Shown here in pieces: positions 36,954 through 39,693 of a DNA stretch of 64,000 nt. The notes below the pieces were generated by a model. That model had not been told where the DNA came from, ran no database searches, and was given only the letters and a program-made list of their open reading frames with translations. Source of the DNA: an uncultured Saprospiraceae bacterium (lineage in GTDB: Bacteria > Bacteroidota > Bacteroidia > Chitinophagales > Saprospiraceae); assembly GCA_937927575.1 (NCBI GenBank), contig CALBEE010000001.1, forward strand, positions 1 to 64,000. Direction: 5' to 3'. The stretch's first letter is position 1. Each line of letters starts with the position of its first letter. A program made the translations under genes and the position numbers.

Positions 36954-36981
36954 AAAAAAATGGCCGCTCCCCAGCGGCCAT
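36954..36981 (-). terminator. Intrinsic terminator of RNA unit A
   Basis: On the minus strand TGGCCGCT GGGG AGCGGCCA (plus positions 36980-36961), closed by one more A-T pair, is followed by seven T residues (36960-36954). It ends a transcript 116 bases before the DUF1302-like gene starts. Confidence 0.9.
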
Positions 36982-37060
36982 ATTGCAAATTATAATCCCA
37001 TGAACATATCCATAATAAAATGTCGATATTTTTGAAAGCCTCGACTAGGCCATAACTAAA
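36954..37060 (-). ncRNA. Small-RNA-like unit A (tandem copy with shared core and its own terminator)
   Basis: On the minus strand this unit has a hairpin GTCGA/TCGAC (plus arms 37022-37026 and 37041-37045), nine bases, then a 22-base core (36991-37012, beginning TGGATATGTTC and ending GGGATTATA) identical to the core of unit B, a 10-base linker and a strong terminator: TGGCCGCT/AGCGGCCA with a GGGG loop (36961-36980), plus a T7 tract. The upstream end is uncertain; no promoter is clear. It could be processed from a longer RNA that also contains unit B. No protein-coding content longer than a few residues is convincing. Confidence 0.55.
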
Positions 37061-37099
37061 CTCGTGCTAATTTTTAAAATCGGTACATTTCTCTGAGTT

Positions 37100-37145
37100 A
37101 AAAACTGTTATCGAATGTCAGCCTCCCCAGACGGACACTCGATAA
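37100..37145 (-). terminator. Intrinsic terminator of RNA unit B
   Basis: On the minus strand TTATCGAGTGTC pairs with GACATTCGATAA (one G-T wobble) across a 14-nt loop containing CTGGGGAG, followed by ACAG and TTTTT (37104-37100). Unit A's terminator also has CTGGGGAG at its apex. Confidence 0.7.
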
Positions 37146-37235
37146 CAAGTATATAATCCCATGAACATATCCAATTTTGAATGCCGATCTTTTTCGGCCG
37201 GATAACTAGTATTTAAGTGTTTAACTACTAATTAT
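37100..37235 (-). ncRNA. Small-RNA-like unit B (with promoter, shared core and terminator)
   Basis: On the minus strand a promoter (TTG at 37270-37268, 20 bases, TATATTTG at 37247-37240) predicts a start near 37235. The transcript then has a hairpin GCCGA/TCGGC (37198-37194 with 37187-37183), nine bases, the 22-base core (37173-37152) identical to unit A, a 6-base linker and a terminator with a 12-bp stem (37145-37134 with 37119-37108) and T5. The predicted RNA is about 135 nt. The hairpin pairs differ from unit A by a compensatory C-G for T-A change at the same position, which supports a conserved RNA structure. Confidence 0.6.
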
Positions 37236-37239
37236 GACT

Positions 37240-37270
37240 CAAATATAAGAGCGTAATACACCCTCGACAA
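37240..37270 (-). promoter_or_regulatory. Bacteroidota-type promoter of RNA unit B
   Basis: On the minus strand TTG (37270-37268) is followed after 20 bases by TATATTTG (37247-37240), an exact match to the TAnnTTTG box at usual spacing. No start codon with a plausible gene follows within the ~135 bases to the terminator, so it is read as an RNA promoter. The rest of 37271-37617 is AT-rich with no gene that I can support. Confidence 0.55.
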
Positions 37271-37645: not shown

Positions 37646-38746
37646 TTATTCGAATGGACTTAGGACTTCTGGAATATTCAGGTATGAGGTATCAGTGAGC
37701 GTTTTCATAAATGCTACTATTGCAGTTTGCTCATCTACAGAAAGATTGAGATTGGATACTAAAGGGTCTTTATTTCTGCCAGGTTGTATGCCGTGATTAT
37801 AATGATCCATGACTTCTTCCAATGATGAGAACCTTCCATCATGCATGAAGGGTGCGGTTAGTTCAATATTACGCAAAGTAGGGGATCTAAATCTACCCGT
37901 ATCATTCACCATACCATTGATGCCAAGTCCGATGTCTCTAAACAAGCTATAATCATTGCCCACGCTGTCTAAGCCATTATTATGATATGTATTAGCGGTG
38001 AATAATGGCAAGCTGTGACAATGACTACATTCCGCATCTTTTAAACCATCGTCAAAATCAAAAAACATACTATGGCCTAAATCTTCATCATCATCTAATA
38101 TTATTTCGCCTCTTGCGAATTGGTCATACCGACTATTACCTGATACAATGATCCGCTCCCATTGCGCTAGCGCTTTCCCAATGAGAACTCGATTGATTTC
38201 GCTTCGATCTTCGATGCCAAAGGCTTTTCTAAATTGAGGTGCATAATAAGGGTGTGCCCTAAGCTTATCTATTAAAGCATCTAGATCATTGCCCTGTTCG
38301 ACTGGATCTTCGATAGGATGTAAAGATTGTTCTTCTAAAGTCTGTACACGTCCATCCCAGAATAATCCACTGTAATAAAAGCCAACATTGACCAAACTCA
38401 TAGATGAGCGTCTTCCCTCTAGTCCATTAATACCTGCGCTTATTCTAAGTCCATCTGTAAATGCCAACTCAGGAATATGGCATAAAGCACATGCCACCGT
38501 ACTATCAGCAGATAGGATAGGATCGTAAAATAGATGACGACCCAATTCTACACCATCTTTCGTCATTGGATTATCTGAAGGTACTTCTAGCATCGGAAAC
38601 TCTTCCGGTACCTCGACTACATAAGGCGTGGGCTGGTAAGGAATATCAATCAAGTCTTTTGATACCATGATGCTATCATCTTCACAGCTGAAGATCAATG
38701 AGGCGGTTAATACAAGAAAGAATAAAAATTTGATATTCCTAATCAT
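37646..38746 (-). CDS. Di-haem cytochrome c peroxidase family lipoprotein (MbnH/MauG-like)
   Basis: A 366-residue lipoprotein (lipid Cys21 after LTASLIFS). Two c-type haem sites are visible: CALCH (residues 86-90) and CSHCH (240-244). Flanking segments such as GVELGRHLFYDPILS, FTDGLRISAGINGLEGRRS, LFWDGRVQTLEEQ and TLRNIELTAPFMHDGRFSSL are typical of the bacterial di-haem peroxidase/MauG family. It is located 122 bases downstream of an MbnP-like gene on the same strand; MbnH-type enzymes oxidise a tryptophan of their MbnP partner. I therefore favour MbnH-like over a plain H2O2-scavenging peroxidase. It is expected in the periplasm, membrane-anchored. Confidence 0.85.
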   Translation of the reverse strand: MIRNIKFLFFLVLTASLIFSCEDDSIMVSKDLIDIPYQPTPYVVEVPEEFPMLEVPSDNPMTKDGVELGRHLFYDPILSADSTVACALCHIPELAFTDGLRISAGINGLEGRRSSMSLVNVGFYYSGLFWDGRVQTLEEQSLHPIEDPVEQGNDLDALIDKLRAHPYYAPQFRKAFGIEDRSEINRVLIGKALAQWERIIVSGNSRYDQFARGEIILDDDEDLGHSMFFDFDDGLKDAECSHCHSLPLFTANTYHNNGLDSVGNDYSLFRDIGLGINGMVNDTGRFRSPTLRNIELTAPFMHDGRFSSLEEVMDHYNHGIQPGRNKDPLVSNLNLSVDEQTAIVAFMKTLTDTSYLNIPEVLSPFE

Positions 38747-38868
38747 TTTAAATATTTAGCTTATTCACCTATAACACCAAAGTTAGAGGCTTGTTTTAAC
38801 TCTTACAGTGACAATTGATAACAGATGCTTTTTATATACTCGAATATGACATAATCTATATAGAGCTA

Positions 38869-39693
38869 CTAGTAATTGGGCTCTACTGCGAGTTTCAGAT
38901 TATTGCCAATTTGCTCGATCACCTGCGATTTATCCATTGTATTGTAGTCGATATCATTGATAAGTTTGAAATAATCAAATCTGACATTTAGGTCTAATGA
39001 TGAGCCACGTTCTTGATTGATGTCTAAGTTTTCAAATACGTAATCAAATCTGGGCATATCAATTTGGAGTGTATCTGCTACGTCATGTACGCCGATCTGT
39101 CTAAGTACAATCCAACTTTTGACAAATTGATTTTGGTCTACGATATATAGACTATCACCTGCAATGGCCAGCGGATGATCTGCACTGAGCTCGATGGACT
39201 GAGCATCATCAATTTCTTCAGGAACGCCTAGCGAGAGCAAGAAGCTATTGAAATCATTAGCTTCAATGAAAGTACCTAATGGATAGCGAATCGCTGTAGG
39301 TTTTACCAATACTACGTCATCAATAATTTCTTGTTCTTCACCGCTATTGTCGACATAATTTAAAGTCTCGGTAATTCGAAAGTTTTCACTACCATCACTT
39401 ACCGAAATATCACTGAAATACATCTGAATATCCTCAATGATGAAGAATATTTCGTTATTGTTGGGTATAGAATCAATTCGATTATAGGCACTATCACCTT
39501 TGAAAAAACCTACTGTTAATGATAAGGTAGGGTAGGTACAACAATCTTCGCAAGCATTATCAGCCGTAACATCATAATTAGAAGAATTAGGGTCTAAGCA
39601 GCCCTCAACATTTTGATAGCAGGATGCAAAGAAAATCATGCATATAACCGCTACAATAAAACTAACCCTTTTGTTGCTTCTGTTTATCTGCAT
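38869..39693 (-). CDS. MbnP-like lipoprotein, partner of the di-haem enzyme
   Basis: A 274-residue lipoprotein (lipid Cys25 after MIFFAS). After the Cys comes a short GCLDPNSSNYD ... NACEDCCTYP module often seen on Bacteroidota surface proteins. The MbnP core follows with SLTVGFFKGDSAYNRID, EIFFIIEDIQMYFSDISV and ELSADHPLAIAGDSLY. MbnP proteins bind copper, using a kynurenine made by MbnH from a Trp. The canonical Trp-x-Trp pair after the HPL segment is not visible; the single Trp of the whole protein is W194. The 5' end overlaps the exonuclease gene by 32 bases, so the two are probably co-transcribed. Confidence 0.75.
   Translation of the reverse strand: MQINRSNKRVSFIVAVICMIFFASCYQNVEGCLDPNSSNYDVTADNACEDCCTYPTLSLTVGFFKGDSAYNRIDSIPNNNEIFFIIEDIQMYFSDISVSDGSENFRITETLNYVDNSGEEQEIIDDVVLVKPTAIRYPLGTFIEANDFNSFLLSLGVPEEIDDAQSIELSADHPLAIAGDSLYIVDQNQFVKSWIVLRQIGVHDVADTLQIDMPRFDYVFENLDINQERGSSLDLNVRFDYFKLINDIDYNTMDKSQVIEQIGNNLKLAVEPNY

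Follow-up and report, generated by a model that had tools for sequence, protein, structure and literature searches.

What is encoded by the two similar units that follow each other on the minus strand between positions 37270 and 36954 of the window, that is, the stretch of 64,000 nucleotides of Saprospiraceae DNA analyzed here? The initial annotation considered them to be a duplicated family of small RNAs or, alternatively, tandem regulatory leaders belonging to a DUF1302/MMPL operon. We compared the locus with its counterparts in other genomes and weighed these readings against several others.

Anatomy of the two units

Both units contain an identical core of 22 bases, TGGATATGTTCATGGGATTATA, located at 37173-37152 in unit B, which is read first, and at 37012-36991 in unit A, which is read last; the identity claimed for the two copies holds base by base. 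For core B sequence, relatives and folding all contribute to the assignment and the core is predicted to be unpaired, and for core A we rely on the sequence and the family alignment. Each core is preceded by a hairpin of the pattern GYCGA/TCGRC which ends 9 bases 5′ of it, exactly as had been described. In unit B (37198-37183, minus strand) the arms GCCGA (37198-37194) and TCGGC (37187-37183) enclose the loop AAAAGA, and this hairpin fits a family feature. Before core A (37045-37022, minus strand) the arms GTCGA (37045-37041) and TCGAC (37026-37022) enclose a loop of 14 bases, so that the compensatory pair which had been noticed between the copies is indeed present.

The promoter that had been recognized for unit B could also be located. 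A TTG resembling a −33 element (37270-37268, minus strand) stands 20 bases 5′ of the −7 box TATATTTG (37247-37240, minus strand), which from its sequence and the family pattern belongs to a Bacteroidota promoter of the sigma-A type. This TTG-N20-TATATTTG arrangement precedes only unit B in the window, and the transcription start is predicted at about 37235. For Flavobacterium psychrophilum the motif TAnnTTTG has been reported at −12 to −5 (PMC9723704).

Core B is followed by a stem–loop (GTTATC.../...GATAAC; 37146-37100, minus strand), then AG and five T, which judging from sequence, folding and U-runs is probably a partial terminator or an internal hairpin. Downstream of core A we find the terminal intrinsic terminator of the array (36981-36954, minus strand; sequence, alignment and U-runs agree), in which TGGCCGC and GCGGCCA pair around TGGGGA and seven T abut the stem directly. 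Separate terminators with a common apex had been proposed for the two units. The apex CTGGGGAG is found in both stem–loops, whereas a terminator is secure only for unit A, because the U-run of unit B comprises five bases and starts 2 bases past the stem. The apex is a local feature, limited to the window's genus and a small number of close relatives, and lies outside the family consensus.

Conservation and distribution

A DNA search of 60 relatives hit 30 of 61 genomes, every one a member of the window's own family. Nearly all of these matches are centred on the core, usually with at least two copies on the same strand 90-450 bases apart. The core word across the family alignment is AUGUUCAUGGGAUUAUAA, and its exact 15-mer ATGTTCATGGGATTA occurs in 166 of the 199 Saprospiraceae genomes (83%) and in 96 of 112 genera, and a single genome may have as many as nine copies; the reversed pattern used as a control hardly occurs in these 199 genomes. 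Many of the genomes hold only one or two exact cores, and several genera, g4 and g6 among them, seem truly to be without an exact core. As the genomes are mostly metagenome assemblies, gaps may explain some of the absences.

The initial annotation had suggested a search with a covariance model. Built on core and terminator, such a model was run on 296 genomes from across the phylum and gave significant matches in the Saprospiraceae alone; in the window's own genome it detected a single locus with two cores. Of the remaining hits, three borderline ones in other families proved to be plain terminators. When the whole window was compared with Rfam 15 no family reached its gathering score and a relaxed search returned sub-threshold matches only, in keeping with the earlier remark that the units belong to no known Rfam family. 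In the literature we found no paper mentioning the core sequence and nothing relevant on small or noncoding RNA in Saprospiraceae.

Genome and phage loci together yielded 145 distinct arrays. Usually there are two to four cores per RNA, with a range from 2 to 6. In an alignment of 40 last units the core columns are invariant, and 7 of the 13 predicted pairs of the terminator stem stay paired although both partners change. The segment 3′ of the core is strongly folded (z −5.3 in first units, z −4.2 in last units) and the core itself is less prone to folding than its shuffled versions (mean z +0.6). The folding program does propose six pairs within the core; changes on both sides never occur in them, and they are therefore unsupported. 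By this comparison, the core is unpaired and almost invariant. A hairpin with an A-rich loop of the AAAAG type precedes the first core in 58% of first units compared with 7% of shuffles, and as there are 64 different stems among 72, this 5′ stem is maintained by compensation. Before the last core a hairpin shows no more than a slight enrichment (22% versus 11% in shuffles), and hence the second hairpin of the window, which is conserved in the genus but not clearly so in the family, is best seen as a feature of its genus.

Taken together, the core in the relatives, the covarying stem behind it and the enrichment of the 5′ hairpin place the array far beyond chance, and at the level of sequence comparison it is a real conserved element. 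The selection on RNA structure and core that had been postulated from the two copies is thus seen across the family, with an invariant core and covarying stems. In G002, another species of the window's genus, the first core has decayed (ATATATTCATGAGATTATAA) and the last one is intact, which suggests redundancy of the cores (the second half of our alignment A3 is without the G002 sequence).

We also considered whether the core is read in another way. A mini-ORF in the core (ATG TTC ATG GGA TTA, M-F-M-G-L-stop) was rejected, since synonymous variation is absent and the stop codon is not retained; the core is therefore not peptide-coding. A DNA site is unlikely, as the orientation and the hairpin 3′ of the core are always retained.

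Some arrays contain a third, middle core within a longer structured region. In four of them (L031, L042, L043 and L060) the middle core reads AGGTC-ATGTTCATGGGATTA with small variations and further 3′ stands GAGATTACAATTTGTT, which almost repeats the core's second half, so that the middle core looks as if it were split by an insert. Several large genomes carry upstream of the main array a divergent paralogue with the core ATATTCGTGGAATTATAATCATTG and a strong terminator of its own. It sits 250-700 bases before the main array (L028, L030, L041), is absent from the window and may represent a second sub-family with a changed word.

Transcript organization and genomic context

In 82 of 100 arrays a promoter-like box, typically ATATTTGTATCGTGA, stands 50-115 bases 5′ of the first core. 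This figure is descriptive because the list of promoter patterns was drawn up after inspection of the alignments; a stricter count agrees with it. The same distance range before the last core holds such a box in only 2 of the 100 arrays. The U-runs behave inversely, with a median of 4 after the first hairpin versus 8 after the last (Wilcoxon p = 7e-17). Since the promoter-like box stands only at the first unit and the long U-tract only at the last throughout the family, the two units appear to be modules of one RNA rather than independent sRNAs. For the window we predict an RNA of about 280 nt reaching from 37235 to 36954, with partial termination near 37100 being possible. Sibling sRNAs such as PrrF1/PrrF2 and AbcR1/AbcR2 are separate transcription units, and the array shares with them the adjacent duplicated modules with an identical core. 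Two independent tandem sRNAs of this kind, each with its own promoter and terminator, would agree with the hairpin, core and stem–loop being present in both units and with the five T after unit B, which make a short transcript possible. We nevertheless regard this arrangement as unlikely, given that 98 of the 100 arrays are without a promoter-like box before the last unit, that the U-runs after the first hairpin are short, that in the window no TAnnTTTG is found between 37100 and 37045 and that the family as a whole shows a single promoter and a single strong terminator. The earlier idea of a duplicated sRNA family is therefore retained as far as a family under selection is concerned, and its independent tandem sRNAs are not supported.

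The genes around the arrays bear on two further readings. In 77 arrays the nearest upstream gene is encoded on the strand of the array, in 17 on the other one. The commonest conserved neighbour is a CCP_MauG di-haem peroxidase (MbnH-like; 37649-38746 in the window, minus strand), which is found upstream in 21 arrays including that of the window and is often preceded by an MbnP-type gene. In the window the second upstream gene (38872-39693, minus strand) encodes a secreted protein that has no Pfam match and is MbnP-like in position and size; in L027 its place is occupied by a PF20243 MbnP protein. Arrays lie 3′ of such an MbnP-like/MbnH-like gene pair (37649-39693, minus strand, in the window) in many genera, and this neighbourhood is a hint of a connection with copper or haem supply. 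Subtilases and secreted proteins carrying sorting domains also recur among the upstream genes. The array could be part of the 3′ UTR of the co-transcribed MbnH-like and other secreted protein genes or an element in the processing of their RNA, which would suit the excess of same-strand upstream genes from recurring families and the position of some phage copies just past gene ends. However, most arrays have their own promoter-like box 5′ of the first core and the upstream families are several and unrelated, and we find such a role quite improbable. Still more doubtful, to the point that we give it very little credence, is a cis-acting leader or attenuator of the downstream DUF1302/MMPL genes as put forward in the initial annotation. 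A same-strand ORF does begin about 115 bases downstream of the array, but elsewhere in the genus (three genomes) other genes follow the array and the DUF1302/MMPL genes are not beside it, and the reading fails for this reason. Moreover, a strong terminator closes the array, and the conserved same-strand gene directly downstream that a leader or riboswitch should have is not found: the downstream gene is on the opposite strand in 51 arrays and on the same strand in 35, and its identity is not conserved. The ORF of 423 amino acids itself gave no Pfam match, and a search of viral sequences with the DUF1302-like protein returned nothing.

Copies of the core are also present in phage. Five viral contigs (L179, L180, L181, L182 and L183) each carry a single, 20-base exact core followed by a hairpin. 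At least one of them, L183, is a genuine tailed phage with the core inside its tail cluster (genes for tail sheath, tape measure and baseplate), and L179 encodes a DnaB-like helicase and a primase. That these contigs carry core and hairpin alone fits an action without local genes.

Comparison with known RNAs

In its architecture, and in this respect only, the array resembles Yfr1. In this RNA two variable stem–loops flank an unpaired stretch of 16-20 nt with a perfectly conserved word, the 3′ stem–loop is the terminator, and the RNA is 54-69 nt long with one core and nearly universal in cyanobacteria (PMC2190773). Both RNAs thus combine a stem–loop, an unpaired ultraconserved word and a terminator stem–loop, and both are near-universal in one bacterial group. 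The word of Yfr1, ACUCCUCACAC, is absent here, where the core is a different word of 15-22 bases that occurs two or more times per RNA instead of once.

A second relative in design comes from the same phylum. The paralogous FopS/GibS sRNAs of Bacteroides (RF04319) consist of a conserved seed, which is unpaired, and a terminator 3′ of it, and have promoters of the sigma-A type; the single seed of FopS is at the 5′ end, pairs with translation starts and is encoded in 12-15 separate genes, and copies of FopS have been reported in phage (PMC11697453). The last unit of our arrays has the same succession of unpaired conserved seed and intrinsic terminator, and the Saprospiraceae RNA shares the sigma-A-type promoter and the phage copies, but FopS is made of separate single-seed genes whereas here tandem modules are joined in one RNA. 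Both the FopS seed and the Saprospiraceae core contain UUCAUGG-N-AUUA, a similarity that is not significant as 8.7% of shuffled cores align to the FopS seed as well or better (0.087). The FopS model (RF04319) scored 19.6 bits on the window against a gathering cut-off of 56 and gave nothing above the cut-off in 37 genomes, and we therefore rejected membership in this family. The genome does encode a protein of 98 amino acids with an RRM_1 domain, the class to which the FopS-associated RbpB belongs.

Mode of action

Conservation, covarying stems, the unpaired core and the order with the promoter first and the terminator last emerge directly from the comparison of the sequences. With a probability of about one half we interpret the array as a Saprospiraceae-specific, trans-acting multi-seed sRNA that is made from one promoter and has the unpaired core as its working part. 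The promoter before unit B would give rise to a noncoding RNA of about 280 nt composed of two modules, each of hairpin, unpaired core and hairpin, and ended by the terminator of unit A, and some transcripts may stop after unit B at about 135 nt. The near-invariant core would be displayed at least twice per molecule and may act as a seed in base pairing with mRNAs. The sequence complementary to the core, UUAUAAUCCC-AUG-AAC-AU, resembles a translation start region, and pairing could thus take place at translation starts, as with the FopS seed. Several cores in one molecule would provide a higher dose or serve several partners.

The best individual candidate for such a target is clpC, the start of which (AATACC-ATG-AACAG) ranks first as a core partner among 481 sampled gene starts. 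In each of the four genomes of the genus this start can pair with the core, with energies of −17.7 to −21.6 kcal/mol. This start region is retained within the genus (L187/L229, L230, L303 and L304) though the DNA further upstream has diverged. Among clpC orthologues outside the genus the pairing is not kept, and clpC may at best be a target within the genus, a proposal that we make only weakly. Pairing tests with about 0.7 Mb of gene starts showed that well-pairing starts barely exceed those obtained with shuffled cores (fractions 0.07-0.33), and for other loci a match-count test yielded 0.07-0.12. The family pattern search placed 5 loci at gene starts among 30 examined of a longer list. No family-wide target came out of the near-complements in the own genome, the family pattern search or the clpC orthologues.

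This lack of a conserved mRNA target in the own-genome, family pattern and gene-start searches would agree with the RNA being a sponge, in which the repeated unpaired core binds one conserved RNA-binding protein, as CsrB and RsmZ do for CsrA, and the number of cores sets the amount of protein held. In both systems a single RNA repeats a word to which protein or RNA can bind. The repetition of the word 2-6 times per RNA and its invariance over 15-22 bases, more than a seed needs, point in the same direction; phage copies in an mRNA context could compete for the protein, and the genome encodes the RRM_1 protein mentioned above. On the other hand the binding protein is purely hypothetical, and the many genomes with one or two exact cores would have a weak sponge. 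RRM domains and CsrA bind short motifs and not a fixed word of 15-22 bases, and Csr sites consist of repeated GGA within hairpin loops, a pattern that the array does not show, its fixed word being unpaired. Protein titration seems to us rather unlikely, yet it is the main rival, and target pairing by a multi-seed sRNA is the most likely, still putative, mechanism.

Meaning of the array

What is new about the array is that it represents a family absent from the catalogues, which repeats its core within a single transcript and is near-universal in the Saprospiraceae. To our knowledge a multi-seed layout in a single transcript has not been described in Bacteroidota. Post-transcriptional control in this phylum is known from a few RNAs of Bacteroides and Flavobacterium. 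Tentatively, we propose a family-wide multi-seed RNA whose word is repeated 2-6 times and has also been copied to phage genomes, and which would serve either as an anti-start-codon seed or as a counted protein-binding array. In this large environmental family the array is a strong candidate for a regulator of genes throughout the group, and as one 15-mer locates the RNA in 83% of the sampled genomes of the family it offers a defined handle. The RNA would allow testing whether the repetition of seeds serves to raise the dose or to bring targets together, and for what reason the word is also found in phages.
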